A stretch of DNA of 47,038 nucleotides from Ruminobacter sp. (GTDB lineage: Bacteria; Pseudomonadota; Gammaproteobacteria; Enterobacterales; Succinivibrionaceae), in assembly GCA_017940385.1 (NCBI GenBank), contig JAGAYS010000021.1, positions 1-47,038 on the forward strand, given 5' to 3'. How positions within the stretch are numbered: the stretch's first letter is position 1; every line of letters starts with the position of its first letter. A program made the position numbers and the translations under genes. A model generated the notes under the pieces. The model did not search any database, was not told where the DNA came from, and saw nothing but the letters and a program-made list of their open reading frames with translations. Shown piece after piece: positions 4,689-29,866 of the stretch.

Positions 4689-7211
4689 ATGGCAAATAAA
4701 AAGGCAGCATCTGCTGCAACTGCTTCATCATTTGATTCAGCATCATTAAATTATACCAAGGAAGATTTCAAGGCTAAGATTCTTCATCATCTTCACTCTA
4801 CCCTTGGTACCAGCGAAAACAAGGCTACTTCACAGTCATGGTGGAAGGCTACCTGTGCAGCTGTTAATGAATTGGTTTACGAACGTCTTACTCAGACTCA
4901 GCAGACCCACGCAAACAAAGATACCAGAGCTGTACACTATCTTTCAGCTGAATTCCTGATGGGCCGTTTAACTGCTAACAACCTTCACAATCTGCACTTA
5001 TTCGATGTATGTGCCGATGCATTAAGGGATCTCAACATCAATCTTACCGATTTATGTGAAGAAGAACCGGACATGGCACTCGGTAACGGTGGTTTAGGTC
5101 GTCTTGCAGCTTGCTTTATCGACTCTCTCGCTACATTAAATCTTCCTGCATTAGGTTACGGTATTCACTACGAAAACGGTCTTTTCCGTCAGGAAATCCA
5201 TAACGGCCGTCAGATCGAACGTCCTGATTCATGGCGTGAATACGGCAACCCATGGGAAATCTGCCGTCCTGAATCAATTCAGGAAGTTGCCCTTGGCGGT
5301 TATGTAGAAACTATCTACTCTGAAAAGGATGGCTCACTCAAGAAGGTATGGCATCCTGCTGAAAAGATTAAAGGTGTGCCTTGGGATATCCCTGTAGTAG
5401 GTTACAACGGTACTACCGTAAATATTTTACGTCTGTGGGAATCAAGAGCTCCAGAATCATTTGACTGGGACGTATTCAATGCAGGCGGTTATGTTGACGC
5501 TCAGGCTGAAAAGGCAAGAGCAGAAACCATCTCCAAGGTTTTATATCCAAACGATTCTACCGAAGCAGGTAAGATCCTCCGTCTTGTTCAGCAGTACTTC
5601 TTCTCTGCATGTTCATTAAAGGATATCTTAAGACGTTACAAGCGTGCTCATACTCTTAAGAGCGGTGCTGTTGACTTCTCTGAATTCGCTAAGAAGATTG
5701 CAGTACAGCTGAACGATACTCACCCAACCATTGCAATCCCAGAATTAATGAGAATTTTCGTGGATGAAGAAGGTTTAGGCTGGGAAGAAGCTTGGAATAT
5801 CTGCTACAACGTATTCTCTTACACCAACCACACCCTGTTACCAGAAGCACTTGAAAAGTGGCCTGTATACATCTTCGAAAGAGTATTACCACGTCACCTC
5901 GAAATCATCTATGAAATCAACCGTCGCTTCCTCGAAGGTGAATGCGAACGAGTATTCCCAGGCAATGATTTCATCAAGGCTAAGCTTTCTCTTATCGAAG
6001 AAGGCGCTACCCGCATGGTTCGCATGGGCAACCTCTGCGTAGTTGGTTCACACAAGGTTAACGGTGTTGCTGCAATCCACTCTAAGCTTGTTAAGGAAGA
6101 CCTCTTCCCTGAATACGCTCAGATTTGGAACGACAAGTTCTGCAACGTAACCAACGGTGTTACCCCACGTCGCTGGATGCTTTCATGTAACCCTGAACTT
6201 GCTAAGCTCTACACTGAAACCTTAGGTTCAGATGAATGGGTAACCAAGCTCGACAAGTTAAAGGATCTCAAGAAGTTTGCTGATAACGCTGATTTCCAGA
6301 AGAAGTTTATGGCAATCAAGCACGCTAACAAGGTTAAGCTTGCTGCCGTAATCAAGGCTGAAACCGGTATTGAAGTTGATCCTAACGCATTATTCGATAT
6401 TCAGATCAAGCGTTTACACGAATACAAGCGTCAGCAGCTCAACTTACTGTACATCCTTGCCTTATACCGTCGTGTTCTCGAAAACCCAGATCTCGAAATG
6501 ACTCCTCATGTATTCATTTTCGGTTCTAAGGCTGCTCCTGGCTACAAGATGGCTAAGGACATTATCTATGCTATCAACAAGGTTGGCGAACGCATTAACA
6601 ACGATACCCGCATCAAGGGTAAGATCAAGGTTGTATTCATGCCTAACTACCGTGTATCTTTAGCTGAAAAGTTAATTCCTGCAGCTGATGTATCTCAGCA
6701 GATTTCTACTGCCGGTTACGAAGCATCAGGTACCGGTAACATGAAGCTTGCCATGAACGGTGCAATCACCCTCGGTACCATGGACGGCGCTAACATCGAA
6801 ATCGTTGAAGAAGCCGGTAAGGAAAACAACGCAATCTTCGGTTTATCCGTAGATGAAGTTAAGTCTGTTAAGGCTAACGGTTACAATCCATGGGATTACT
6901 ACAACCGTGACCACGAAATCAAGAAGGCTCTTGACTGGTTAGACAGTGATTACTTCACTCCTGGCTTCCCTGGTGAATTATCAGGTATCAAGCGTGCTTT
7001 ACTTGAAGGCGGTGACACTTACCTCGCATTAGCTGACTTCAGATCTTACTCAGACGCTCATGCACGTCTTGAAAAGATGTACGCTAATAAGAAGGGTTGG
7101 GCTAAGTCTGCAATTCTTAACTCAATCACCATGGGTAAGTTCAACTCTGACCGTTCAATTCAGGATTACGTAGATCAGGTTTGGAGTCTCGAAACCTGTC
7201 TGGTTAAGTAA
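4689..7211 (+). CDS. glgP: Glycogen/starch/alpha-glucan phosphorylase
   Basis: It is a pyridoxal-phosphate enzyme that releases glucose 1-phosphate from the non-reducing ends of glycogen or maltodextrin. The 840-residue protein has the family core AVHYLSAEFLMGR (about 80-92), NGGLGRLAACF (about 131-141), QLNDTHP (about 338-344), and the cofactor-binding lysine K686 within EASGTGNMKLAMNGA. It is slightly longer than E. coli GlgP/MalP because of a polar Ala/Ser-rich N-terminus of about 25 residues. No regulatory phosphorylation segment of the eukaryotic type is visible. GlgP versus MalP cannot be decided safely from sequence. Codon use is very strongly biased, more than in most neighbours, which suggests an abundant protein. 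It is monocistronic, with CRP and FNR sites upstream and a strong terminator downstream. Confidence 0.95.
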   Translation: MANKKAASAATASSFDSASLNYTKEDFKAKILHHLHSTLGTSENKATSQSWWKATCAAVNELVYERLTQTQQTHANKDTRAVHYLSAEFLMGRLTANNLHNLHLFDVCADALRDLNINLTDLCEEEPDMALGNGGLGRLAACFIDSLATLNLPALGYGIHYENGLFRQEIHNGRQIERPDSWREYGNPWEICRPESIQEVALGGYVETIYSEKDGSLKKVWHPAEKIKGVPWDIPVVGYNGTTVNILRLWESRAPESFDWDVFNAGGYVDAQAEKARAETISKVLYPNDSTEAGKILRLVQQYFFSACSLKDILRRYKRAHTLKSGAVDFSEFAKKIAVQLNDTHPTIAIPELMRIFVDEEGLGWEEAWNICYNVFSYTNHTLLPEALEKWPVYIFERVLPRHLEIIYEINRRFLEGECERVFPGNDFIKAKLSLIEEGATRMVRMGNLCVVGSHKVNGVAAIHSKLVKEDLFPEYAQIWNDKFCNVTNGVTPRRWMLSCNPELAKLYTETLGSDEWVTKLDKLKDLKKFADNADFQKKFMAIKHANKVKLAAVIKAETGIEVDPNALFDIQIKRLHEYKRQQLNLLYILALYRRVLENPDLEMTPHVFIFGSKAAPGYKMAKDIIYAINKVGERINNDTRIKGKIKVVFMPNYRVSLAEKLIPAADVSQQISTAGYEASGTGNMKLAMNGAITLGTMDGANIEIVEEAGKENNAIFGLSVDEVKSVKANGYNPWDYYNRDHEIKKALDWLDSDYFTPGFPGELSGIKRALLEGGDTYLALADFRSYSDAHARLEKMYANKKGWAKSAILNSITMGKFNSDRSIQDYVDQVWSLETCLVK

Positions 7212-7274: not shown

Positions 7275-7415
7275 CGCTTTGTATGTTTGTTTGCGGCTTC
7301 CATGAGATTGTCATTGCTGATGAATGGCGAATAAATCATTACAATTGTGAACTTTATGTTAAGATTGTTGTTCTTAGGTTCGGAATGTCATCAAAATATG
7401 TTTGAGGAGAAACGT

Positions 7416-8045
7416 ATGTTTTTCAGTGATTACTTGAATGTGCGCATATGTGTTCTGTCTGCCGTGTTCATGCTGTGTTCATCATGTTCAGTAACGTCGT
7501 CGTCCCAGTCCGTGCAGGTGAGACAAGGTTCTGATTCAGGTATTACGGAAAACCTATCCCAAAAGATAAAAGTCAGAGTTATTAATGGAAAAGGGGAAGT
7601 TACCGACGAGTTTACCGGAGACAGGACTATTACGGTAAATGCCTTGGGAGGGCAGGCTTACCAAATCGAGCTTAAGGCGGCTGATGAAATGGCGGATAAG
7701 TGCATTTACGGCAAAACGGAACTTAAACCTGAAAAAAAAATAGATACCGATAAACTTCCTGCCGGATTCTTAGGGAATAAAGTGCTTGAGGATGTTCCTC
7801 GATGGGTTGATTATTCACCAGTATCTTTTTCAACTACGTCGACAGCTTATCCGACTATTTTGGTTTTATCTCCAACTGATGTTACCGTTAACATGTTTTG
7901 GAATTACTACGATTATCCCGATACCGTTTCATATTATCCAAAAATACACGAAACCGATGAATGTATGAAATGGCTTAAAGAATCAGGTTATGGTGACGGC
8001 AAAACTAATCAAAGTCCGGAGAATGTTAGCTCTTCGGCCCCCTGA
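7416..8045 (+). CDS. Predicted exported protein, possibly a lipoprotein; function unknown
   Basis: The ATG at 7416 is chosen because GAGGAG lies six bases upstream; the open frame extends further upstream without a ribosome site. The protein is 209 residues. A hydrophobic N-terminus (VCVLSAVFMLC-like, about residues 9-22) ends in CSSC, which resembles a lipobox although the -3 position is Cys rather than Leu. After the signal comes a Ser/Gln-rich linker and a beta-rich domain containing ALGGQAYQIEL and FWNYYDYPD. I do not recognise the family. The end is suspicious: the stop follows a run of five C (8038-8042). One extra C would read on for about 36 residues in a frame that repeats the NVSSS peptide as NVNSS, ending at 8152. 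So it may be truncated, phase-variable or affected by a sequencing indel. Confidence 0.65.
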   Translation: MFFSDYLNVRICVLSAVFMLCSSCSVTSSSQSVQVRQGSDSGITENLSQKIKVRVINGKGEVTDEFTGDRTITVNALGGQAYQIELKAADEMADKCIYGKTELKPEKKIDTDKLPAGFLGNKVLEDVPRWVDYSPVSFSTTSTAYPTILVLSPTDVTVNMFWNYYDYPDTVSYYPKIHETDECMKWLKESGYGDGKTNQSPENVSSSAP

Positions 8046-8152
8046 AGAATGTTAACTCTTCGGAAACCACGGAGACTGGTGACGATCTTCGGTATGGCGG
8101 CATTTGTGGCAAAACATGTGCTGTCAGAAGAATAACTGAAAACGGAAAATAA
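8046..8152 (+). pseudogene. Likely frameshifted tail of the preceding exported protein
   Basis: Directly after the stop the +2 frame is open to TAA 8150-8152 and would encode a Ser/Thr/Glu-rich tail ending in a Cys-containing segment (GGICGKTC). Its first bases, AATGTTAACTCTTCGG, repeat AATGTTAGCTCTTCGG found just before the C-tract, so the segment looks like a continuation of the same coding repeat. Adding one C at 8038-8042 would join the two frames. Inference from sequence only. Confidence 0.4.
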
Positions 8153-8175
8153 CTGTCGTTTTTGTTAAGACTGGA

Positions 8176-8203
8176 AAGGGAGCTGTGATTTCACAGCTCC
8201 CTT
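8176..8203. terminator. Bidirectional terminator between convergent genes
   Basis: AAGGGAGCTGTGA pairs perfectly with TCACAGCTCCCTT across a two-base centre. It lies between the plus-strand exported protein and the minus-strand large protein, whose stop is at 8224. T-runs are short on both sides. Confidence 0.75.
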
Positions 8204-8223
8204 CAGTTTAGTGGAGAAAACGT

Positions 8224-11200
8224 CTATCTTGTTCCGGTATTTATTTTACGTTCAATAATGCGTTTATTTCCAACAAAGGTATTGAATTTGAATGAGCCTT
8301 TTGCGGTATTTGCATCGTACAGGTGCTCAAGATGGAAGAATGGGGTTGTATTCAGTCCTCCTGTTTCTTTTTTCAGGGTGTAAGTTACGTGTGCGTCTCC
8401 CGTACCTGATTTGACAGCCTGAAGCCATAAGGCACCGTTTGCGAAAGTTCTGTGCTTGTCGCTGCAGTCAGTTGCGGTCTTGTTGTGCATTTTTGCACAG
8501 ATATTAAAGGTGATTGTTCCTTTCTTATTTGAAAAATCAAGGCTTGATTTGTATGAGCCCTCATCGGTGATGTACAGAACCGAACAGCTGTCGGACAGAT
8601 CTTTCCATCCGGAATCCGTGTATTCCTTTATTGAAAGAGGTGAATAAAGAGTGCCGGATTCAGTATTGCTTCCGTCAACCGTATAGTTACCGATAATGTT
8701 ATCCGTAACAATTCGTCCCATATGAACAGTGTAGTCATTAAGACTGCGGAGCTTTGATGCATACTGCTGATGGTTGGTGTTAAGAACGGCACCTGAAACG
8801 TCAGTATCGGCAGTGGTTACGGTATTCTTGGACACGCACAGCGGGTCGGCCGTTCCGCAGGTAAAGCCTGTTTCAGCACAGTCAGAACTTTCACTGAATG
8901 TATATGACGTATTGTTTGCCATGCACGCATTAAGTTTTGCGTAGTATGCGAATTTTTCCGTGGCGGTTTTGCGTCTGACTGTATCAGTGCTGACGCCCGG
9001 AACCGTAACCGTTGTATGGAAAGGGATCCCCTTATCAGCTATATAGTCATCATACCCGGAACACGAAACTGCAGAGTCGGAAGAACAAGGATCAAAGCTG
9101 TTTTCTTCCCTGTATGACGTGGCAGTGGTGGCAAGAGGCATAATCAGGACTACGCCGTCGTAATTACGGTCTGCCGTTCCCGGAATTCTGTAGAATTTTT
9201 CGGTGAAGCCTTTCTGCAGCTTTGAAGCGTATCCGTAACCGTTAAGATAACCTGAGAAGGTGAGCTTCTGGTTGTAATACATAGGGCAGGTAGGTGTTCC
9301 CGCATTCACATAAGCATCGCTTCTGAGAATGCCGGTAAGACCGGTGCCTGATGAGCGGTAACCGAATCCGTTAGCCTCTCTGAATTTATAGAAATCATTG
9401 ATTACATAGCTGTCATTGCCGATGCCTAGCGACATCGGAATAACGGTAAACACCGGACTGTAGACATGAGTACTTACGGAAGATGAACTCTGTGGTTTTA
9501 TAACGGGTTCAGCAGAAAGACTGTACCATCCTGAATCGGTTATTCTGACTCTTTTCCCGTTTGGAATGTTTCCGGTGTAGCCAATCTTCAAATATTCGGT
9601 TTCTGTTTCGTTATCGCCGTTATAAACGGTGAAGTCGGCTGTTTTTTCTGTAGAGACGGTATACCCGGAAAGAGCCGTACTCCAGTTTGAAATCTTTTCC
9701 GGAAGAATGGCTGTTGCTCCGTCAGTCGGTACTCTTACACTCTTGGAATTGCTGCCGGACTGCGGAATTTTTATGATGCTCTCAGAAGAACAGACGTTCT
9801 TGAGATTTGTCTGGTTGACGGTGGCCGTGCAGCCGGAGTCAGGACATGCCACAGCATATCCGCGGAGGTAGTATGGGGCATTGGCGTAAAGCAGTCTGTA
9901 TTTGCTGCCGTCAGTTCTGGTTGAATCGGTAGGGGATGCCGTCAGCAGGTCATAGCACAGAGCGTATGGAACGCCAACAATGTACTGATCCGGAGTAGAA
10001 CCCTGGTTAAATTCTCTGGTGATTACGTCACTTGAGGTAACCTCCCTGTTGCCGATGTAGGTGCTCTTGGTTACATTAAGTTCCGTCTTGACAGGGTAAA
10101 GGGTTCCTCTGTCTGCCGTGGTAATGAATTTGAATTTAGGAACAATGGCTCCGGTAGTGCGGTTGTACTCGACAGGCAGGGTTACATACTCTTCCGTAAA
10201 GTTTGTTGCATGATCCTTGCCTGAAAAAAGAGTGTATGTATGATTGTTGGAGTCCTTTATTTTTATTTCAGTATTTCCCTTGAGGGTGAGCTTTATGCTG
10301 TCCACGGATTTGACGTCGTTTGACAGTGTGTCGCTGTAGATGGCCTTGACATTCATGTCATTGACGTAGTTTTCCAAATCCTCGGTGGCTCCTTCCACAC
10401 ATTCATTGGTTGTGAACGAACAGGATTCGCTTAAGGATGCCGTGTTGCTGGTTCCGCAGAAGAAGTACGTATACTGTTCCGTAGGTTCTGCCGTATATCT
10501 GACAGGATCTCCGTGGTCAAAGGTGATTCGGTAGTTGTTCTGGGCATTAACCGTATAGGTATGCCCGTTTATCTTTACGTTTAATGTTCCTGTCGGAGTT
10601 TCGCAGAATCCGCCCTGGGAACAGCTCTGAACCACCAGACTTACGGTAGGAGCACAGCTTGAAAGCTGCTCCAGATAGACACGATAATAGCTGTAGGTTA
10701 TTTCGTCTTCCAGAACCACATCCTCACATGCGGAAAGCGTGGTGTAGCCTTTGATGTTGAAGCTTTCTGTTGCTTTGCACTCTTTTGACTTCGTACATAA
10801 GAGTTTTGTTAAATCAATTTCTCTGGCGTTGATTCCTCCCGTGAAACTGGTTACTCCGCTTATGGAAGCCTTGCCAGGAGTCAGAAGGTATGCAGCTGCA
10901 TCATAATCTGATGATTGGCTGTCTCTGGTTATGACGATGTCTTGTTCTGCAACAAGAACCATATGTGGAACCGGATTACTGCTGGTTGCCGTAAATGAGA
11001 TTTCATTACTGGAGAATACGTATTTATTCAATATGTTAATCATGTTGTTTTTCAGGGTTACCTTTTTCCTCCCTGTTACAGGATCAACTGTTACAGATGA
11101 TGAATCAATGTAGTATTCAAAGGTTGAATTGCAGTTGGCTTTAGCTTTAGCAAGATTATCCTTTCTGAACTGTTCCTTTTCCGGATCTGAATCCTGCATT

Positions 11201-21353: not shown

Positions 21354-22115
21354 TTAATCAAGGTATTCAGCTTCTTCCTCTTCTTCTCCCGGAAAATCCG
21401 CTTCATCATCTGCATCTTCCTGAGGAGCAGGCATTGGCTTGTAGGCAGGAGCGTTTTTCAGGAAGAGAGCGTGGGATACATTGTCGATTTCAAGCCAGGT
21501 AACATATCCGTCTCCGTTCAGGTCGGCTGAACCAAGTGCGGTAATGAACTGTCTTTCGGCAGCGACATGCTTCTTTTCGGCTTCGATGAATTTTGCATAC
21601 TCATTCTTGTCGAGCTTGTAGTCCTGATTTGTGTCAAAAGCCTTCAGAACGAACATTGCATGGCATGGGTCAGGACATTTCTTTGCGTGAGCACCGAAGT
21701 TCTTTCCGTGTCTGCCGTATCTTACGTTCTTCTTGTCACCTCCGGCGCGTTTGTCGGCCTTGCCGGTCTTCCTTGAGTCCTGCTGTTTTGCCTTGTCGGC
21801 ATCTGCCGCAGGGGCTTCCGGATTCGGCATGATTACGGTAAGTTCATCAAGGGTAACAAAACCGTTCTTATCAGCATCAGCCTTTTCAAATGTTAGGAGA
21901 CCTGATTCATGTTTTGCGGCATTTTCGGTAAGCTTCTGAGTCATGGCCTTTACTTCCGATGCATTCAGAGCACCGTCTCTGTCGGCATCAAATTCTGCGT
22001 AAGGGGATGAGAACCCGCGATGGTTACCATGATGATTACCATGGGTTGATGCTGAAGCGTAGCCGCATGCAAGAACGGCTGAAACGGTTAAGGCGGCAAT
22101 TAAAGTCTTTTTCAT
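21354..22115 (-). CDS. Secreted EF-hand calcium-binding protein
   Basis: The 253-residue protein has a Sec signal peptide (MKKTLIAALTVSAVLACGYA, cleavage probably after ASA) and four EF-hand loops. These are DADRDGALNASE, DADKNGFVTLDE, DTNQDYKLDKNE and DLNGDGYVTWLE. Loops 1, 2 and 4 are canonical, while loop 3 has Tyr instead of Gly at position 6 and may bind weakly. A His-rich patch (HGNHHGNHRG) follows the signal and a basic Lys/Arg/Gly linker with a CPDPCH motif separates the loop pairs. The last 25 residues are almost all acidic. It should be periplasmic or secreted and bind Ca2+. Its partner is unknown. It lies between trxB and the CO dehydrogenase operon, with its own terminator. Confidence 0.85.
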   Translation of the reverse strand: MKKTLIAALTVSAVLACGYASASTHGNHHGNHRGFSSPYAEFDADRDGALNASEVKAMTQKLTENAAKHESGLLTFEKADADKNGFVTLDELTVIMPNPEAPAADADKAKQQDSRKTGKADKRAGGDKKNVRYGRHGKNFGAHAKKCPDPCHAMFVLKAFDTNQDYKLDKNEYAKFIEAEKKHVAAERQFITALGSADLNGDGYVTWLEIDNVSHALFLKNAPAYKPMPAPQEDADDEADFPGEEEEEAEYLD

Positions 22116-22349
22116 TTTTCATTGTCCTCTGATGGGGGTATTCGATATTAGCCGAGGATTATCATCTGCTGCAGGTTACTGCGATACTCCTCGCTGAACA
22201 TGGTTTTATTATATAAATTTTCACAGTATAACCTGTGTCAGAATCATGCTATTTTGTGACAAATTGTAACAATGATTAATGAGTTTCAGCGAACGTATGG
22301 AAAGAAGGGTGTACGCGGGATGCGGCCTGACCACAGGCCTGATTGTTTA

Positions 22350-22388
22350 CCGGAACCGAAGAGGCGAGTAAGCCTCTCCGGTTCCGTG
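22350..22388 (-). terminator. Hairpin at the end of the CO dehydrogenase/ABC operon
   Basis: On the minus strand CGGAACCGGAGAGGC pairs with GCCTCTTCGGTTCCG (one mismatch) around a six-base loop. It starts a few bases past the last operon stop at 22400. There is no strong T-run, so it may act mainly as a 3' stabilising stem. Confidence 0.65.
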
Positions 22389-22399
22389 GTAATAACGTG

Positions 22400-23173
22400 T
22401 TAAATACTGTATTCGATAGGGTAGTTGTGCTTCATATTGAAGGTTTCAAAAATAATATTTCTTATCTTCTGAAAATCTTCCGATGTTCTGTCACGTCCTG
22501 GCCCCAGATTTATTGTAAGTACCTTTTTTACCATTCCGGGATTTGGTGTCATCACCACAACCCGGTCTGCCAGATATACGGCTTCATCTATGTCATGTGT
22601 TACGAAGATGATGGTTTTTCTTTCCTTTTTCTGAATGGACAGGATGTCATCCTGAAGCTTCATTCTGGTAATGGCGTCAAGAGCACCGAAAGGTTCGTCC
22701 ATAAAAATAATGTCAGGGTCTGCGGTGAGGGCTCTGGCTATGGCAACCCGCTGCTGCATGCCACCGGACAGCTGATGAGGCGAACTGTCTGCAAATTTTC
22801 CCAGACCGACGAGATCAAGATATTTCTGAGCTGTCTGTCTTCTTTCCGCGGCTGAGAGTTTTTTGTTTGACTCAAGGGCCAGCTCCACGTTCTTAATGAC
22901 GTTTCGCCATGGAAGAAGTCCGTAGTTCTGAAATATTGTCACGTTTCTGGTTGACGGTTTTCTGACCTCCTTTCCATCAATGGTGATGGAACCGGATGTA
23001 GGTGTGTCAAAACCTGCAATGGCGTTCAGAAGAGTGCTTTTTCCGCAGCCGGAAGGACCCAGAAGGCAGATGAATTCTCCCTTTTCTATGGTCAGGTTTA
23101 CGTTGTTAAGAGCCGTGAACAGTTTTCCCTTGTGGGTGAACTGCTTGTTTACGTTGCTGATGTTTATGTACAT
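22400..23173 (-). CDS. NitT/TauT-type ABC transporter, ATP-binding subunit
   Basis: The start at 23173 ([12 protein letters not shown]) is chosen because AAGGAG lies seven bases upstream and it begins right after the permease stop. The longer frame adds 23 residues overlapping the permease gene. The 257-residue protein has Walker [11 protein letters not shown]-loop QNYGLLPW, signature [15 protein letters not shown], Walker [13 protein letters not shown] and H-loop VTHD, as in SsuB/TauB/NrtD. It powers import by the permease and lipoprotein encoded just upstream. It is the last gene of the operon that begins near 28088 with the CO dehydrogenase in its middle. Confidence 0.9.
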
Positions 23174-23177
23174 ACCG

Positions 23178-23972
23178 TTACTCCTTTTGCAGTCCCCATT
23201 TCTTAAGAATCTGTGCTTCTCCGTATTTGAGTGCGGCGTCAAGCAGCAGACCGATCACGCCGATTACAACGATGTCTGCAGCCAGAATGTCGCATCTCAG
23301 GTTGTTGCGGGCATCGATGATAAGGTAGCCGAGGCCGGACTGTGTGCCGATCATTTCACCGCACACGAGGAATACCCAGGCAGACCCCAGGGCCAGATGC
23401 GTTCCTGCGGTTATCTGAGGGAAGATGGCAGGAAATACTATTTTCCAGAAGATTTCGATTTTGCCGACACCGAAGTTTTTGGCCACCTTCAGATATATTT
23501 CCGGAATGTTCTTCACGCCCACGGCAGTGGATATAAGAACAGGGAAAAAGGCGGCAATAAAGATTGTTACGATTGCCGGCATGTCACCGATGCCGAAAGC
23601 CAGCACGATGAAAGGCATCCAGGCAATCGGGGATATCGGACGCAGCAGCTGAATTATCGGATTGGTGAATTTGAACAGAATGTCAAACCAGCCGATGATA
23701 ATTCCGCCTATGATTGCCGATGTTACTGCCAGAATGAATCCCACGGCAAAGCGTGTCATACTGGACAGAATATGCTCCCCGAGAGTGCCGTCGCCAATGA
23801 TTTCCAGAAGGGCTTTGAATGCTGAAGCCGGGGACGGAAACAGCGCTTCGTTAACACCTGACAGACGTACTGCAAGATCCCATACCGTTATGAAGAGTAT
23901 GAAGGAAATGACTACGTATGTCAGACTAATTCCTTTTTTGTAAAGGTAACGTAAAAATCCGTTATTCAACAT
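23178..23972 (-). CDS. NitT/TauT-type ABC transporter, permease subunit
   Basis: The 264-residue inner-membrane protein has about six membrane segments and the binding-protein-dependent transport fold. The EAA-type cytoplasmic loop that docks on the ATPase is seen at about VGVKNIPEIYLKVAKNFGVG (residues 151-170). The start overlaps the end of the binding-protein gene by 11 bases and the stop is four bases before the ATPase start, which shows translational coupling. It is of the SsuC/TauC/NrtB type. Substrate cannot be read from the permease. Confidence 0.9.
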   Translation of the reverse strand: MLNNGFLRYLYKKGISLTYVVISFILFITVWDLAVRLSGVNEALFPSPASAFKALLEIIGDGTLGEHILSSMTRFAVGFILAVTSAIIGGIIIGWFDILFKFTNPIIQLLRPISPIAWMPFIVLAFGIGDMPAIVTIFIAAFFPVLISTAVGVKNIPEIYLKVAKNFGVGKIEIFWKIVFPAIFPQITAGTHLALGSAWVFLVCGEMIGTQSGLGYLIIDARNNLRCDILAADIVVIGVIGLLLDAALKYGEAQILKKWGLQKE

Positions 23973-24984
23973 TTCTCACTATATCCTCGTAAGGTACAGG
24001 GTTTTCGGAAAGACCGTACTTTTTAACCTTTTCGGCGAGCTGGTCGTAGTTTTCCTTTTTGATTTCAAGGTTGTCATAGGAAATCCACTTGAGTGAGATA
24101 TCCAGAGTGTCGTTGGTAACCTTGAAGTACTTTGAAGCAAGTTCTTTTTCATGTTCGTGATCGTGCTCCAGTCTTAGACCGCCTTCCTTAAGGGCTTTAA
24201 CAAGACGTGAGGCAAGTTCCGGATGGGAACTGAGGAATTTCCCGCTTAAGGCAAAACCGCAGCAGATTGAGTCAGGCCACAGATCCTTTGAATTGTAGAG
24301 AACCTTACCGATGTTGAGGGACACGGCCTTGGCACCGAACGGTTCGGCAACGCAGTATCCGGCAATCTGTCCTGTTGCAAGGGCGGAAGGCATTTCAGGC
24401 GGCGCCATTTCCACAATATTAATCTCATTAATGTCCACGTTTTCCTTGGCGAGTGCTTCGTTCAGGAGAATGAAGTGTGATGACTGTCTGTGAGGGATTG
24501 CAAAGGTTTTTCCTTTAAGATCTGCCGCACTGCCGATGTCATTTCCGACAACGATGACGTTACCGTCCCTGTGGGCGAGGGAAGCAAGATATACGTCAAC
24601 TCCCTGTTCCCTGGCTTTCATAACCAGTTCAACCAGGGCTACCGCCGCATCAACATGGCCCGTGTTGAGGGCATCCATAAGTTCGGTCCATGAACCGAAT
24701 TTTACGAGTTCAATGTTAAGACCGTCCTTTTTCAGTTTTTCCAATTCCGCCGCTTCAAAACCGGCAAGCGAATGGGTGATGGGCAGATAGGCAATTCTGA
24801 TAACCTTCTGTTCGGCTGAAGGAACCGCAGAACCGTCAGTCTTTGCCGGAGTGTCTGCAGCAGGTGCAGATGCCTGAACATTCTGAGACTGTCCTGCGTT
24901 ACCGTCAGAGGCATCTCCGCAGGCCGTAAGAGACATAAGAAGTGATACGGCAAGGGTGGCGTATAAGTTCTTCATTTTAATCAT
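23962..24984 (-). CDS. NitT/TauT-type ABC transporter, substrate-binding lipoprotein
   Basis: The 340-residue protein has a lipoprotein signal with lipobox SLTAC (lipidated C22), then an Ala/Ser/Gln linker and a periplasmic type II binding fold of the SsuA/TauA/NMT1 kind (IRIAYLPITHSLAGFEA at about 62-78, VELVMKAREQGVDVYLA, FAIPHRQSSHFILLNEAL). GGAG lies seven bases before the ATG at 24984. An unusual His/acid cluster, EHDHEHEKE, occupies residues 273-281. Near the pocket, VEMAPPEMPSALATGQIAG matches the family's ligand-cleft loop. Known ligands of the family are nitrate, sulfonates, taurine, cyanate, bicarbonate and pyrimidine precursors. Because it follows the CO dehydrogenase gene and has a His cluster, metal import is a possibility, but this is inference. 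Confidence 0.85.
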   Translation of the reverse strand: MIKMKNLYATLAVSLLMSLTACGDASDGNAGQSQNVQASAPAADTPAKTDGSAVPSAEQKVIRIAYLPITHSLAGFEAAELEKLKKDGLNIELVKFGSWTELMDALNTGHVDAAVALVELVMKAREQGVDVYLASLAHRDGNVIVVGNDIGSAADLKGKTFAIPHRQSSHFILLNEALAKENVDINEINIVEMAPPEMPSALATGQIAGYCVAEPFGAKAVSLNIGKVLYNSKDLWPDSICCGFALSGKFLSSHPELASRLVKALKEGGLRLEHDHEHEKELASKYFKVTNDTLDISLKWISYDNLEIKKENYDQLAEKVKKYGLSENPVPYEDIVRNVE

Positions 24985-25034
24985 ACTGTTTCTCCTTATT
25001 GTTGTATTTTGTAATTATGTTTTACGTTGTGTTT

Positions 25035-25060
25035 TCCGGAGCCGTGGTGATGTCTCCGGA
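25035..25060 (-). repeat. Small hairpin between cooS and the binding-protein gene
   Basis: TCCGGAG and CTCCGGA form a seven-base stem with a 12-base loop in the 107-base gap between the cooS stop and the lipoprotein start. There is no T-run, so it may be a processing or attenuation element that sets transporter levels below those of the dehydrogenase. Confidence 0.35.
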
Positions 25061-25091
25061 GCTTTAAAACTTTTTTCTTCCCCGTATCGGA

Positions 25092-27356
25092 TTATTTTTC
25101 CGAAGAGGCTGCGTCCGGTTCCTTTTTTTCCGGCATTAGGATTGAATCAGGAACGAACCACCCGAGGGCACGTCTCTTTACAATCATGTCATCGACAATC
25201 TTTTTGCCGACCAGAACCGGATCGGTATTTACGTACATTACTGATTTCAGTTTTTCTCTGGTGCCTTCCTTCAGAAATTCAATAATGTTCTTTGAACCGT
25301 GGATCTGAGCCTCAACGCAGTGATATGAGTTAACGCCCATGAGACGGAATCCAAGTGCGGCATCAACGCCTTTTTCGTTGCTCCATTCCGGAGATGCAAA
25401 ACCGAACGGCATTTCATATATGAACTTGCCTGCCGCACCGGCGATACCTCCGAAAATTCCGGAAGATCTCGTATTGTCTATGCATTCGCCGACATGCCAT
25501 ACCGGAGGCAGATCCGGCTTCAGGAATTCCCTCAGTCTGTCACCGGCCTTGTCAAAGGCTGACTTCGCACAGTAGCCGAGCTTCATCAGAGGGAATGATG
25601 CACAACCGTTTGACAGAATTAGAACATTGTTTTTCAGAAGTACGTCGGCCACGTCTATGATGGCTCTTTCATACACGACCTTGGTGTTGTTACAGCCTAC
25701 CATGTTGACGATGCCGAGAATCTGACCGCTCTTTAAAGCTTCCAGCAGTGGGCCGAAGCTTCCGAACTTTCTGCAGACGTATTCAACCGAGAATCCGATT
25801 TCCGCTTCCACCTCATAAGGAGGAATGTATACCGGTATGCCTTTGCGCTGTTCATAGCTTTCTATGGCTCTCAGGACGATTCTGTCGGCAAGTTTCGCCG
25901 CATCATTCATGTTTGAATGACGATGGTCGAATTCAAAACGTTCCGCTCCGGGAAGACGGGCACTTTCAGAGGTGGTTATTACCGCTGTTTTGAAGCAGTG
26001 GGCCACATCCATTATTGCCGGATACACATCCTGTACGTCAGCCACCCAGAGATCAAGCGCACCTGTACCGAGAACAAGTTCAGCGGATACGGCATTTGAC
26101 AGCGGTATTACGCCGGCATATCTGTACATTGCCGCAAGGCCGGAACAGCAGATGCCGTAGAATCTTATTCCAAGAGCACCTTTTTCCTTGGCCAGTTTTA
26201 TCATCTTTTCGCTCTGGCCGGACTTTACAATCTGACTGACGAGAAGAGGCAGATGACCGTGAACGGCAATGTTTACGTAGCCTTTTTTGAGTGCGCCGAG
26301 ATTCACCATAGAGGTTACTCTGTCACCGACACCGAAAAGACAGTCTGTAGCGATGTTGGTGGCAACCACACCGGTGAATGTAAAGGCAAGTCCGCAGCGC
26401 AGGAACTGCTGCATGATTGATCTCCAGTCACCGTCAATGCCGCATCCGGTCTTGTGGTAGGCTTCGAATACTTCGTGGTATGCACTGATCGGAATGATGT
26501 CAAGCTCTTCCCATACCTGCTGTCTTTCTTTCGGTGCCAGGGCCCTGATTGTTTTATAGTCGTCAGGTACCGCTCTGGACAGATCCTCAAGCAGGGTGTC
26601 GGCAAGTTCGGAAGCTACCTCGTTAACGCTTCTGTTTTCGGTTTCAATGCCGAAGGCTTTTGCCGTACTGAAAACCTTCTGTGCACCGATTATCGGAACA
26701 TCAAGTTTTCCTTCAGCGGCCCATTTAAGGTTCAGAATGACTTCACGGGCATGCATGCCGTGCTGAGCGGCACCCGCTGCCCCCGCACGTAACAGGTTGC
26801 GGGCAACGATAAGGTCCGCGTCGGCACCGCAGACCCCCCTGTTTGCCTTTGGCGTAATACGGCATGGACCCATGTTGCAGATTTTGCAGCAGATGCCTGC
26901 CATGCCGAAGTTGCACTGTGGTTTCTGCCTGTCAAAGCGGTCAAAAGCCGTGTCAAAGCCAATCTGCTCGGCTCTGAGAATCATGTCTCTTACGGCAGGG
27001 TCAGGTGTGTTATCGATAACGTCCTGCTTTGAAGGGAAGGTCTTTCTGTATTCATTGACGGCTTTTGTGTAATCCTTTATGAATTCAAGACTGTCATCCT
27101 CACTTTCGTTTTCTCCGTGGTGATCGCCTTTAAGGATGACGGTGGGAATACCGTGTTCGTCAAAACCGATGATGTTTCTGTGTGAATGAAAATGACTGAG
27201 TCCTCCGTGTGAATGATCATGGGGGTGATTATGATCGTGGTCATGGTCATGCGAATGGCCGTGAGAGTGTGAGTGAAACGCATCGGCAGTGACGTCGCCG
27301 GCTTCTGCCGTCCTGATTATTCCATTGATTACCGGTGTTTTTGAGGACTCTGACAT
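25092..27356 (-). CDS. cooS: Anaerobic Ni-type carbon monoxide dehydrogenase with His-rich N-terminal extension
   Basis: CooS-type enzymes oxidise CO to CO2, passing electrons to ferredoxin. Two in-frame ATGs exist (27362 and 27356); GGAG spacing favours 27356. Numbering here is from 27362 (756 residues; usual CooS is about 630-640). Residues 29-61 hold 15 histidines, for example HSHGHSHDHDHDHNH, a nickel-storage type tract. The core follows: D/B-cluster cysteines C150, C158, C159, C162, C167, C178; proton-path H201 and H204; C-cluster H370, C406, C557, C587, C627 and lysine K664. The fourth cysteine position (C333 of the Carboxydothermus enzyme, in DVQC) is aspartate D445 here (DVQD). Whether the C-cluster forms normally is therefore open. 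No CooC, CooF or CooJ is encoded nearby. It is third gene of a six-gene operon. Confidence 0.88.
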   Translation of the reverse strand: MSESSKTPVINGIIRTAEAGDVTADAFHSHSHGHSHDHDHDHNHPHDHSHGGLSHFHSHRNIIGFDEHGIPTVILKGDHHGENESEDDSLEFIKDYTKAVNEYRKTFPSKQDVIDNTPDPAVRDMILRAEQIGFDTAFDRFDRQKPQCNFGMAGICCKICNMGPCRITPKANRGVCGADADLIVARNLLRAGAAGAAQHGMHAREVILNLKWAAEGKLDVPIIGAQKVFSTAKAFGIETENRSVNEVASELADTLLEDLSRAVPDDYKTIRALAPKERQQVWEELDIIPISAYHEVFEAYHKTGCGIDGDWRSIMQQFLRCGLAFTFTGVVATNIATDCLFGVGDRVTSMVNLGALKKGYVNIAVHGHLPLLVSQIVKSGQSEKMIKLAKEKGALGIRFYGICCSGLAAMYRYAGVIPLSNAVSAELVLGTGALDLWVADVQDVYPAIMDVAHCFKTAVITTSESARLPGAERFEFDHRHSNMNDAAKLADRIVLRAIESYEQRKGIPVYIPPYEVEAEIGFSVEYVCRKFGSFGPLLEALKSGQILGIVNMVGCNNTKVVYERAIIDVADVLLKNNVLILSNGCASFPLMKLGYCAKSAFDKAGDRLREFLKPDLPPVWHVGECIDNTRSSGIFGGIAGAAGKFIYEMPFGFASPEWSNEKGVDAALGFRLMGVNSYHCVEAQIHGSKNIIEFLKEGTREKLKSVMYVNTDPVLVGKKIVDDMIVKRRALGWFVPDSILMPEKKEPDAASSEK

Positions 27357-27392
27357 TATCATATTCTCCGTGAGTGAGTTACTTTTTGCGGT

Positions 27393-27701
27393 TTATGCCC
27401 TTACTGCAGTGAGTCTGCCGGAGACTAATGCCTTCCAGGCAATAACAATGCTCCAGACCAGAACGGCAAGTCCGGTAACGGATGCCGTAAGCAGCAGGTC
27501 GTCAACGACATCCTCGGCAGTCATTGCAAGTGCCTCGGTTCCTTCTTCCTTTATTCCGGTGTAGAGATCAACGCTCCACATAAGCATGCTGCCGTAGAAC
27601 ATGTAGCAGAGTGCTGAGAAACAGAATCTGCCGTTTTTGTCCTTAATGTATCCAATGGTGGAAATCAGGCCGCCAATAAGCATGAAAAGCACAAGTATCA
27701 T
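27393..27701 (-). CDS. Small membrane protein in the CO dehydrogenase operon (unknown)
   Basis: The 102-residue protein has three hydrophobic segments, about 1-18, 27-46 and 75-93. An acidic stretch (IKEEGTEALAMTAEDVVDD, about 50-68) lies between the second and third. No family is recognised with confidence. AAAGGGGG just before the ATG is a good ribosome site. It is 15 bases after the 123-residue gene and 36 bases before cooS, so it is surely co-transcribed. A role as a membrane docking or transport partner for the dehydrogenase is a guess from position. Confidence 0.75.
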   Translation of the reverse strand: MILVLFMLIGGLISTIGYIKDKNGRFCFSALCYMFYGSMLMWSVDLYTGIKEEGTEALAMTAEDVVDDLLLTASVTGLAVLVWSIVIAWKALVSGRLTAVRA

Positions 27702-27716
27702 AAAACCCCCTTTACC

Positions 27717-28088
27717 TTAGTTTGCGGCTCTGCCGTCAGAAAGACGGTCGGCTGCTTCTGATGTGAAAAAAGACTTAAGACCGGCGTAGGCCAGATAAGC
27801 CAGGGTTACGAGTACGGCCATCGGTACGCCGACCTGCCACAGTTCTTCTATCATTACCTCCGTGTCTTCAGGTGTCTGCATGGCGGTAATGTACGGAAAA
27901 TGAAAAGTGATCTCACCGTGCCAGATGTGCTCGAGTGCCAGCAGGAGGGAGCCTCCGAAAAGAAGCTTTGATAGTCCGTTCAGATGCTTTCGAAGCACCT
28001 GAACCTTGCGGTTGCGGCTTTTACTGAGTGCAGTTGATGTTAACGTAAGCACTGCGGCTTCTGCGGTTGGTATAAAAAAACAGCACAT
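27717..28088 (-). CDS. Small membrane protein, first gene of the CO dehydrogenase operon (unknown)
   Basis: The 123-residue protein begins MCCFFIPTAEAAVLTLTS, with a CC pair at the very start, then a basic stretch (SKSRNRKVQVLRKHLNGLSK). Two membrane segments follow, at about 41-54 and 87-107. A conserved-looking EHIWHGEITFHFP segment after the first helix carries three histidines. GGGGA seven bases before the ATG is the likely ribosome site. I cannot name the family with confidence; I have an impression of similar paired proteins in other anaerobes but cannot verify it. The CC and His residues would allow metal or redox chemistry. Confidence 0.7.
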   Translation of the reverse strand: MCCFFIPTAEAAVLTLTSTALSKSRNRKVQVLRKHLNGLSKLLFGGSLLLALEHIWHGEITFHFPYITAMQTPEDTEVMIEELWQVGVPMAVLVTLAYLAYAGLKSFFTSEAADRLSDGRAAN

Positions 28089-29194
28089 TTTGGATCCCCG
28101 ATTATTTTTTGGTATTCTGAAAACGGCATTCAGACAGAATTCCAGAAATCATGTCAAAGCGAAATCTGTCTGATTAGGTGTAATTTACCTGTGTTCACTG
28201 GTTTTTATGAATGTCCTAAAAACCTAGTATGAAACTGTGGTATGAATAATACATAATTATCATTCGGTAATCAATACTAATTTAGTAGGATTTTTAAAAT
28301 AATTTCCGCGCCGGATATACGTAATGTCTCCGGCATTAAATCTGAATTATGGACAGGTGAGTGTCATTGAACTGCTTAACAGGGGGAGAACAGATATGTT
28401 CTGTTTAAACAGGACGGGGATGTCTCTGCTGTGTAAAAAATCATTATGTTAAATATAAACAAAACAAAATACTTTATCCGTTTTCTTTTAAATACGTTAG
28501 TTGTGTAAGAATAATAATTCGTCTAATGTAAAAAATACCATGTTTCGAATCATAAAATACTTAGAAAAAATAGTTTGTTTATGTTTTTAAGAAAAATATA
28601 TATTAGTAATGGGTTTGTTGTAAAAAAAGGGGGGTATAGTTTAAAAATTTGAAGTACTGACATGATTATTAAAAAATTATGTGTTATCTTATTAGGTAAC
28701 TGCTGGAATTATTATGTTTAAAGGTTTTTTTAATACATTGGTTTTTTTGGCAGACAGGAAAGATTCGCAAGAATACTTTCCGTTTGGGGAAGTAACCGGT
28801 AACGGTACCCGATGCGGTAAAAATAAAAGTTAAGATAAAACTAATAAAAAACAAATAAAAAAATTATAACTGTATCGGTGTTTTTAGCATATAAGAAAGT
28901 ATAAAATAATTATAAAAACACAAGCTTATATTCGTCGTAAATATTTGTGGTAAAAGTACAAAATGTAATGTTTTGTTTTTGAAAAATATAACAACTCATA
29001 TTTATGAGTATAAATTTTACGGGGTAAATAGTAAAACTGGTAGGACGTATGGAACTGTCGAAAATCCGTGTTTCCCGTATGAAATTTGGAAATTACGGGG
29101 TTTGCCGCAGACGGTTCGGAAATCTGTTTACGAATTTTACGGGTGATTTCCGTTGTCCTAATGCCGATTATAGTTTTCATGGAGGTAAGCTATT
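28089..29194. promoter_or_regulatory. 1.1 kb AT-rich spacer between the CO dehydrogenase operon and the TetR gene
   Basis: No credible gene; an 84-codon minus-strand frame (28926-29180) is low-complexity and lacks a ribosome site. It contains a 9-base inverted repeat next to the operon start (28130-28173), long A/T runs around 28430-28960, and a group of TTACGGG motifs near the TetR gene (29017, 29093, 29137, with an inverted copy CCCGTA at 29074). It must hold both divergent promoters. Confidence 0.6.
28130..28173 (-). promoter_or_regulatory. 9-bp inverted repeat at the CO dehydrogenase operon leader
   Basis: TCAGACAGA (28130-28138) and TCTGTCTGA (28165-28173) are perfect inverted copies with a 26-base gap, 42-85 bases ahead of the first operon gene. 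It could be an operator for the divergent TetR-type regulator or a leader hairpin. Inference. Confidence 0.4.
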
Positions 29195-29866
29195 GTGGTC
29201 TCTGGTTCAGATAACAAATTAAAGAACGACGCTTCAGACGACTGTTGTGAAGGCAATATGCCGGCAGGCAGTAAGAAAGCGAAGGAAGTTAAGTCGCTCA
29301 ATCGGAGTGACAGGCGTGTTGTACGCACTGAAAAAAAGATTCATCAGGTTTTTCTTGAACTGCTTCAGGATAAAACCTATGGTGAGATTACCGTCGGAAT
29401 GATTCTTGACAAGGCCAAGATAAACCGTTCGACATTCTACAAGCATTACATAAACAAGCATGATCTCGCCTCAGAGGTTATGGCCAACTGTCAGGAGGCA
29501 ATAATTTCATCTCTTCTCGGAGAGGAAAGACTGTCTCTCGGAAATCTCGGATTCTTCAAGTCTCTTCAGGCTACTCTCACAAAACACAGGGAGATGCTGA
29601 AGCTTGTCAAAAGACTGAACAGTGAGGATCTTGACGTAAGGAAGAGCTTCCATGATTATTTCTACAGAAGCATAAAGAAGCATTACGAAGGAAAGCTTTA
29701 CGGATCTAGTGAAGAGGAACTTGATCTCGGTTCTTATGTTTCAGCGGATATTCTGATATCAGTCCTTATGTATTATCTTGATAAGGGAGAGGAAGTTCAT
29801 CCTGACAACATAATTCGCGTAATCGTAAACATGTACGGTCTCAGAAGCTATTACACACCGGAATAA
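29195..29866 (+). CDS. TetR-family transcriptional regulator
   Basis: The start is GTG at 29195, supported by GGAGG nine bases upstream. The 223-residue protein has a polar N-terminal extension of about 45 residues containing a CC pair (DDCCEGN). The TetR helix-turn-helix follows: RTEKKIHQVFLELLQDKTYGEITVGMILDKAKINRSTFYKHYINKHDL read from about residue 48 to 95, with the NRSTFYKHY recognition motif. The C-terminal half is an all-helical ligand domain of the type often annotated TetR_C. It is divergent from the CO dehydrogenase operon and may control it and itself. Its ligand is unknown. A terminator follows. Confidence 0.88.
   Translation: MVSGSDNKLKNDASDDCCEGNMPAGSKKAKEVKSLNRSDRRVVRTEKKIHQVFLELLQDKTYGEITVGMILDKAKINRSTFYKHYINKHDLASEVMANCQEAIISSLLGEERLSLGNLGFFKSLQATLTKHREMLKLVKRLNSEDLDVRKSFHDYFYRSIKKHYEGKLYGSSEEELDLGSYVSADILISVLMYYLDKGEEVHPDNIIRVIVNMYGLRSYYTPE

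Follow-up and report, generated by a model that had tools for sequence, protein, structure and literature searches.

Six minus-strand genes in the window, a 47,038-nucleotide stretch of Ruminobacter DNA, form a real operon, which we lean towards reading as a clade B nickel carbon monoxide dehydrogenase (Ni-CODH) gene group that brings its own supply of nickel, provided through an uptake or delivery module of two small membrane proteins, M123 and M102. The core of the operon is already known; M123/M102 is its new part. Relatives of this pair often adjoin nickel enzyme genes of four kinds, and for this reason the pair may represent a novel type of nickel importer. With slightly less assurance, we put forward M123/M102 as an undescribed nickel importer family. 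Its two small membrane proteins, which look like paralogues, have an EHxWHGE site and a Cys at a putatively outward-facing N-terminus; the family would serve clade B CODH, urease, [NiFe]-hydrogenase and the synthesis of the lactate-racemase cofactor in anaerobes of the gut that lack CbiM- and NicO-type importers (a lack seen in our Succinivibrionaceae survey). The genes lie, 5' to 3' on the minus strand, in the order M123, M102, CODH, substrate-binding protein (SBP), permease, ATPase:

28089..29194, no strand: upstream gap of 1.1 kb, AT-rich in sequence (25% GC at 28500-28999), presumed promoter region
27717..28088, minus: M123, 123-aa membrane protein with N-terminal MCCF and motif EHIWHGE, first gene of the operon
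27393..27701, minus: M102, 102-aa membrane protein with motif LMWxVD, partner of M123
25092..27362, minus: Ni-CODH catalytic subunit, clade B (group B-1-like), 756 aa
27177..27278, minus: N-terminal part of the CODH rich in His, roughly residues 29-62, perhaps a metal store, from the sequence
23962..24984, minus: NitT/TauT-type substrate-binding lipoprotein (SBP), by Pfam/NCBIfam
23178..23972, minus: ABC permease of the importer, PF00528
22400..23173, minus: ABC ATPase of the importer, 257 aa from ATG, PF00005, TIGR01184-like
22351..22386, minus: 15-bp inverted repeat, 14/15 complementary, without a T tail, read from the sequence

The ORF list and a check of the sequence place all six genes where the sequence-only reading had put them. 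The intergenic gaps are 15 nt (M123-M102), 30 nt (M102-CODH) and 107 nt (CODH-SBP), the SBP and permease genes overlap by 11 nt, and 4 nt separate permease and ATPase. A scan of 22000-29300 found no promoter or terminator above shuffle level that would split the genes: the two terminator-like matches (shuffle mean 7.8) are both on the plus strand, and among 11 promoter-like matches (shuffle mean 11.6) two minus-strand ones, near 27255 and 23924, lie inside operon genes at chance level. A neighbourhood search beside cooS showed that the arrangement recurs in relatives, so the earlier reservation that it might be conserved nowhere falls away. Of 80 related loci, 39 have the M123/M102 pair next to the CODH, in either of two gene orders, pair-CODH-ABC or ABC-CODH-pair, and in 35/35 loci showing both the pair and the SBP gene these flank the CODH from opposite sides. 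This keeping of gene order implies that the operon arrangement is not due to chance. All six genes are also found in Ruminococcus, including on a plasmid of R. albus 7.

The CODH is identified by Pfam and NCBIfam, its TIGR01702 score of 473.2 bits falling just below the curated cut-off of 478. Alignment to solved CODHs, whose aligned His and Cys positions we take to be the C-cluster ligands, shows that the C-cluster His and the other four Cys positions are kept, and alignment to 6T7J and 6ELQ shows the particular His and Lys that are presumably those assigned acid-base roles. In its main text, Inoue 2019 (PMC6344411) defines group B-1 by a type II D-cluster, replacement of Cys2 by Asp or Glu and a His-rich N-terminus. 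In the window enzyme the type II pattern, Cys-(X)7-13-Cys-Cys, takes the form C150-X7-C158-C159, which is seen in 82/82 rows (80 relatives plus the window copy twice); Asp445 replaces C-cluster Cys2, as it does in 80/80 related loci; and residues 1-118 hold 18 His. It is 78% identical to the plasmid CODH of R. albus 7, and the CODH of R. flavefaciens ATCC 19208 matches it at 77% identity; the R. flavefaciens CODH is named in the clade B passage of Bohm and Land 2026 (PMC13056359). By these motifs and identities we class the enzyme as a clade B, group B-1-like CODH.

Clade B CODH beside a NitT/TauT importer is already published, in the main texts of Inoue 2019 (PMC6344411) and Bohm and Land 2026 (PMC13056359). 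The suggestion of a previously undescribed system thus does not hold for the operon as a whole, and an undescribed CODH-importer system is ruled out. The window shares with the clade B CODHs in those texts the type II D-cluster, the Cys2 to Asp exchange, the His-rich N-terminus and three ABC genes beside cooS; it differs in the added M123/M102 pair and in its host, a Succinivibrionaceae gammaproteobacterium. The words 'membrane protein' and 'hypothetical' are absent from both main texts. Across the wider literature covered (titles, abstract openings and selected passages; main texts without supplements) the pair is not named, and the passages searched in PMC8776680, PMC7583248, PMC11770544, PMC2667541 and PMC11338639 gave no lead on it. 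Of the familiar CODH neighbours that the sequence-only reading listed as missing, Pfam showed no cooF, hydrogenase or ACS among nine window proteins (six of the operon and three flanking). CbiA, the ParA-like family that covers CooC, has six matches across this organism's genome, among which a CooC may lie.

What, then, might M123 and M102 do? We surveyed 62 M123 copies that are not at a CODH locus; 26 of them have lar or ure genes no more than 3 kb away, the nearest such gene being on the same strand in 24 cases. Two further copies are nickel-linked, one in a urt/ure cluster (L126) and the other, a single case, in a group-4 [NiFe]-hydrogenase operon with HypA and HypF (L214). Nickel-linked copies away from CODH (larE/larB/larC, urease or, once, group-4 [NiFe]-hydrogenase) number 28 of 64, where 64 adds to the survey the copies of G053 and G054 (L127, L128), both without a lar, ure or CODH match, and leaves the fragment G721:C24 outside the count. 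Together with the 39/80 CODH loci, these nickel-gene neighbours extend across several lineages. For 13/62 M123 copies no M102 was found at a distance of up to 1 kb. Whole genomes give a similar picture: LarC occurs in 36/41 Clostridia genomes with M123 compared with 139/350 without it (Fisher p = 2e-9), and CODH or urease in 17/19 Succinivibrionaceae genomes with M123 compared with 5/37 without it (p = 3.5e-8), kinship being ignored in both tests. The tree calls for no fewer than two separate CODH associations if starred branches are counted, and for four as drawn; by this sequence evidence M123/M102 appears to have joined CODH at least twice.

The pair is missing at 41 of the 80 CODH loci (five with less than 1 kb of flank on one side), and M123 occurs in just 2/21 Clostridia genomes holding a clade B-like CODH (at least 61% identity), so the CODH does not require it. 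That low count, with lar genes as the commonest nickel neighbours, also rules out a CODH-specific pair. CbiM was found in 0/56 Succinivibrionaceae genomes and NicO above cut-off in 0/56 (one match below it, in G055), implying that these genomes lack two of the standard families of nickel importers. This survey covered the CbiM and NicO families, and NikABCDE-, UreH- or HupE-type importers may be present in the window's own genome; E. coli NikE as a BLAST reference matched urea-transporter ATPases and was hence not used for calling Nik systems.

Both small proteins had been noted as unknown, and this stands: M123 and M102 score below cut-off for every curated Pfam/NCBIfam family, their relatives, compared with Pfam only, give no match above cut-off, and solved-structure sequences give nothing better than E 1. 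Cys3 is present in 107/107 distinct M123 sequences, and E53, H54, H57, E59, E82 and M90 in 106/107, with one gap (3 of 178 matches, lacking a placed start, were dropped from this set). Judged by residue type, conserved Cys3, Glu53-His54, His57, Glu59, Glu82 and Met90 are metal-ligand-type positions. In M102, M41, W42, D45 and L71 are found in 93/93 distinct sequences, and sequence conservation across relatives rules out chance ORFs for both proteins. An AlphaFold2 model of M123, of middling confidence (mean pLDDT 76.1, pTM 0.52), has helices at 5-21, 27-56 and 73-120. The loop charges of both proteins agree on average with an N-out topology, their sign varying from member to member; for M102 this predicted topology comes from hydropathy and charge. 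A profile comparison of M123 with M102 (probability 25.5, P 7.5e-4) is only suggestive of paralogy.

On the nickel-supply reading that we prefer, M123 and M102 would be the two subunits of a membrane complex, each with three helices, the N-terminus and an acidic loop outside and a basic loop inside. M123 could catch Ni(II) at the outer face through its N-terminal Cys3 together with EHxWHGE, Glu82 and Met90, and would then hand it inwards. Nickel for insertion may then be held by the CODH itself, at its His-rich N-terminus, which would replace CooC/CooJ. The same module would be reused for the LarBCE cofactor, urease and [NiFe]-hydrogenase, and the NitT/TauT importer would stand apart from it and go with the CODH.

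Few families of nickel importers are known, and none of them is recent. NikMNQO/CbiMNQO, NikABCDE, NiCoT, UreH and HupE/UreJ are given in passages of Zhang et al. 2009 (PMC2667541), where gene adjacency served to predict UreH as nickel-specific. The M123/M102 genes resemble those of known importers in adjoining several nickel enzymes, whereas they encode two small proteins, M123 being modelled with three helices, in contrast to 8-helix NiCoT-type or ABC systems. In the NikM/CbiM type, metal is taken at an outward-facing N-terminus with His residues of a nearby helix, a way of working like the outward N-terminal capture proposed for M123. There is, however, no sequence match between M123 and CbiM; Cys3 stands where the CbiM type has a His near the N-terminus, and, unlike NikM/CbiM, the pair has no ATPase partner common to its lar and urease clusters. 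If true, a new importer family would fill a gap in how rumen and gut bacteria feed their nickel enzymes, and a nickel supply beside the gene would be a clue that the CODHs of clade B are metal-loaded enzymes and not degenerate ones.

Could the ABC importer carry the nickel instead? By Pfam/NCBIfam it comprises an NMT1_2/SsuA-type binding protein, a BPD_transp_1 permease and an NtrC/D-like ATPase, COG0715-, COG0600- and COG1116-type parts (judged by their Pfam/NCBIfam equivalents) in one operon and in conserved order. The main text of Inoue et al. 2019 (PMC6344411) proposes the ABC importer beside clade B CODH as a nickel importer, and M123/M102 would then have an accessory part in the membrane, as a nickel chaperone, sensor or exporter; we consider this unlikely, though the likeliest of the rival readings. 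The SBP gene is found at the CODH in 72/80 loci, among them 37 of the 41 that have no pair; of the eight loci without it, four are cut by a contig end on one side. The permease is near the CODH in 69/80, and the ATPase follows the permease in 67 of these 69, both misses being at a contig edge. Four His and three Cys of the SBP are each kept in at least 73 of 74 rows (H71, H138, H170, C211, C241 and C242 in 74/74, H165 in 73/74; the window copy is included twice). Its best solved relative is 3UN6 (E 4.9e-56), termed a metal-binding protein in the main text of Inoue et al. (PMC6344411). This Staphylococcus aureus SBP shares H71, H138, H165, H170 and the CC pair with the window SBP, which differs in having a third Cys, C211. 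S. aureus, however, is not known to have a CODH, implying that the cargo of the SBP need not be CODH-linked. Moreover, neither the SBP nor the permease of the window ABC was seen beside lar, urease or hydrogenase copies of the pair, so those nickel systems appear to work without this ABC, and the best evidence for nickel falls on the pair. The proposal that the operon imports a metal or a CO-generating substrate thus survives in part: metal is the better fit and the CO-generating substrate the poorer, with the nickel evidence strongest for M123/M102 and not for the ABC importer. Most likely, the NitT/TauT importer is a separate module accompanying the CODH, its cargo a metal or metal complex.

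It is more doubtful still that M123/M102 are a general small membrane pair of gut anaerobes without a nickel role, the signal coming from shared ancestry and resampled related genomes. For 36 of the 64 copies outside CODH loci, some of them cut by a contig end and others extra copies, the stretch examined showed no nickel gene; the copy on the Eubacterium eligens plasmid likewise sits among other genes, and at L207 the pair adjoins an ABC ATPase and an NMT1-like binding protein, with no nickel gene seen. In these surveys the family is also narrow, M123 being present in 19/56 Succinivibrionaceae genomes, 1/398 sampled Pseudomonadota (the window's own genome), 41/391 sampled Clostridia and two MAGs labelled Spirochaetales and planctomycete. 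Such a reading nevertheless has to accommodate four unrelated nickel systems, partner switches on the tree, the invariant metal-ligand-type residues of M123 and co-occurrence in two lineages. Least probable is a one-carbon module, in which the ABC imports a small anion or a CO-yielding or COS/cyanide-like compound for the CODH and the pair anchors or protects the enzyme: its ABC parts score on nitrate, taurine and sulfonate importer models, all under cut-offs, and clade B CODH, with Asp at Cys2 of its C-cluster, has no assigned function in the main texts of PMC13056359 and PMC6344411, but the pair also adjoins lar, urease and hydrogenase genes, making a CODH-specific role for it unlikely, and the conserved His/Cys set of the SBP would point to a metal, not an anion.

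Finally, the ends of the operon show few signals. In the upstream gap, an Rfam riboswitch search (Ni/Co or other) gave zero matches at gathering score; that search yielded one sub-threshold sRNA match, and one tRNA was found in locus L184. A NikR-box scan gave scattered two-mismatch matches and, in the window copy, two one-mismatch matches at spacing 14 instead of 16, lending no support to a NikR box. The inverted repeat directly past the ATPase gene, a possible operon end, is absent from the list of the terminator scan. For the ATPase, the ATG at 23173 (257 aa) is a likelier start than the TTG at 23242 (280-aa ORF), and comparison with the loci of relatives supports, by frame and conservation, the 257-aa product.

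The window sequence confirms the six minus-strand reading frames, with short gaps or overlaps, that the sequence-only reading had described. Four of the six operon proteins are recognised by Pfam and NCBIfam; the small membrane proteins M123 (123 aa) and M102 (102 aa), encoded by the first two genes, have no Pfam or NCBIfam match above cut-off. The CO dehydrogenase (CODH) is the sole Prismane-family match in its own genome (2.45 Mb, 70 contigs) and, among the matches listed, the closest named relative is an uncultured Ruminobacter, with a 96% identical CODH.

The passages on clade B, group B-1 CODHs in Inoue et al. 2019 (PMC6344411) describe a His-rich N-terminus, Asp or Glu in place of the C-cluster Cys2, and NitT/TauT importer genes adjoining cooS, this ABC system being hypothesised to import metal (Ni). 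Bohm and Land 2026 (PMC13056359), in the part concerning clade B, give 64% of its operons as carrying ABC genes and could not deduce its function. The window CODH has the group B-1 features tested, namely C150-X7-C158-C159, 18 His within residues 1-118, and Asp445 at Cys2, the last shared by 80 of 80 related loci. These are the best 80 of 201 relatives by similarity, and are biased towards the window's own kind because the most similar were chosen. Since the CODH-ABC core is already published and the window CODH shows the features tested, the suggestion of a previously undescribed system fails for this core. The core operon is known; the M123/M102 pair is the new part.

Window 26028-26030: CODH residue 445, Asp at C-cluster Cys2
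Window 29195-29866, plus strand: TetR-type regulator, divergent from the operon across the gap at 28089-29194
NC_014825.1, 59514-64948: L248, complete six-gene cassette on a Ruminococcus albus plasmid

The proposed neighbourhood search for the small proteins beside CODH and a NitT-type importer shows that this arrangement is conserved. Among the best 80 of 201 relatives, M123 adjoins CODH in 39 loci, accompanied by M102 in 38, and the NitT/TauT-type binding protein (SBP) is present in 72, four of the eight loci lacking it being cut by contig ends. CODH lies between pair and SBP in all 35 loci that hold both, in two gene orders. In Ruminococcus albus 7 all six genes are on plasmid pRUMAL02, where M123 and M102 are both annotated 'hypothetical protein'; PLSDB types this plasmid as conjugative, making it a possible route for spread of the cassette among rumen bacteria.

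Across 74 aligned SBP rows, four His and three Cys are each conserved in 73 or more. S. aureus 3UN6 shares all four His as well as the CC pair, but not the third Cys (C211). A metal or metal complex is a plausible cargo, judged from these residues. No match to the window SBP was seen in the stretches neighbouring lar- and urease-linked copies of the pair. At L207:6195-8748 the pair's neighbours are an NMT1-like binding protein and an ABC ATPase, a system different from the window ABC; no nickel gene was found in that stretch.

What might the pair do? Genomes with M123 number 19 of 56 among Succinivibrionaceae, 41 of 391 in a sample of Clostridia, the class of R. flavefaciens, and one of 398 in a sample of Pseudomonadota, this one being the window's own. 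We fetched 62 stretches with M123 away from CODH (7 from Succinivibrionaceae, 6 from CODH-picked genomes and 49 from the Clostridia sample), and 26 have a lar (nickel-enzyme cofactor) or ure (urease) gene within 3 kb, the nearest being on the same strand in 24. For a genome of 2.6 Mb with a single lar gene, the chance of that gene lying this close to a given site would be well below 1%. The most frequent order in lar clusters is M123-M102-larE-larB-larC; elsewhere M123 faces a urt/ure cluster (L126) or immediately precedes an operon for a group-4 hydrogenase that includes HypA and HypF (L214). LarC is present in 36 of 41 M123-positive versus 139 of 350 M123-negative sampled Clostridia genomes (p = 2e-9), and CODH or urease in 17 of 19 versus 5 of 37 Succinivibrionaceae genomes (p = 3.5e-8, the partly decayed M123 of genome G054 scored as present); both tests ignore phylogeny.

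Cys3 is invariant in 107 distinct M123 sequences, residue 2 being Ala in 97 and Cys in 10, and Glu53, His54, His57, Glu59, Glu82 and Met90 each recur in 106, with one gap. M102 shows Met41, Trp42, Asp45 and Leu71 without exception across 93 distinct sequences. The M123 model has three helices (5-21, 27-56 and 73-120; mean pLDDT 76.1, pTM 0.52). Mean loop charges, from which single members vary, are +2.6 and -1.1 for loops 1 and 2 of M123 and +1.5 and -5.8 for those of M102; by the positive-inside rule they therefore suggest that the N-terminus and motif loop lie outside. Given this topology, Cys3 and EHxWHGE could form an outward metal site.

CbiM was found in none of 56 Succinivibrionaceae genomes, nor was NicO above cut-off, with one lower match in G055; the absence of these two families implies a need for some other importer, further known families being NikABCDE, UreH and HupE. 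On sequence grounds, M123/M102 is a good candidate for a novel family that takes up or delivers nickel. Against this, however, about half of the CODH loci (best 80 of 201 relatives) lack the pair, for more than half of the M123 copies away from CODH the search showed no nickel neighbour, and for 13 of the 62 copies no M102 was seen nearby. The stretches of G053 and G054, outside the 62, have no lar, ure or CODH match; with these included, a nickel gene was found for 28 of 64 copies and none for 36.

A quick tree, built on few columns from 103 M123 sequences and with 47 of 100 inner branches open, includes 33 rows without a nickel partner. Its starred branches cannot be explained by fewer than two separate CODH associations, four being needed as drawn, and within a single starred group of seven copies from Succinivibrionaceae, urease- and lar-linked members are intermixed; the pair therefore seems to switch partner among nickel systems.

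Other genes also adjoin M123. For 16 of the 62 copies an ArsP-type permease is encoded no more than 5 kb away, with lar genes present or absent; at L192 one is downstream (7337-8245), and upstream (5023-6483) is a protein that combines copper-amine-oxidase-N and DUF362 domains. Away from CODH, the pair adjoins a ZIP metal transporter gene (PF02535) in Pseudobutyrivibrio sp. YE44 (L176:8012-8779) and lies near a gene of the same cluster in Lachnospiraceae V9D3004 (L177).

Just downstream of the window operon (21354-22115, minus strand) is an EF-hand protein rich in His and acidic residues, whose start looks signal-like; an 87% identical relative likewise follows this operon in Ruminobacter locus L002. 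The long AT-rich gap at 28089-29194 (GC 25% mid-gap), between the operon and the TetR-type regulator, has no Rfam family at gathering score. A TCCTACTAAATTAGTATTGAT-like stretch, spotted by eye upstream of M123, is common to several Succinivibrionaceae (window, L003, L134) and may possibly be an operator.
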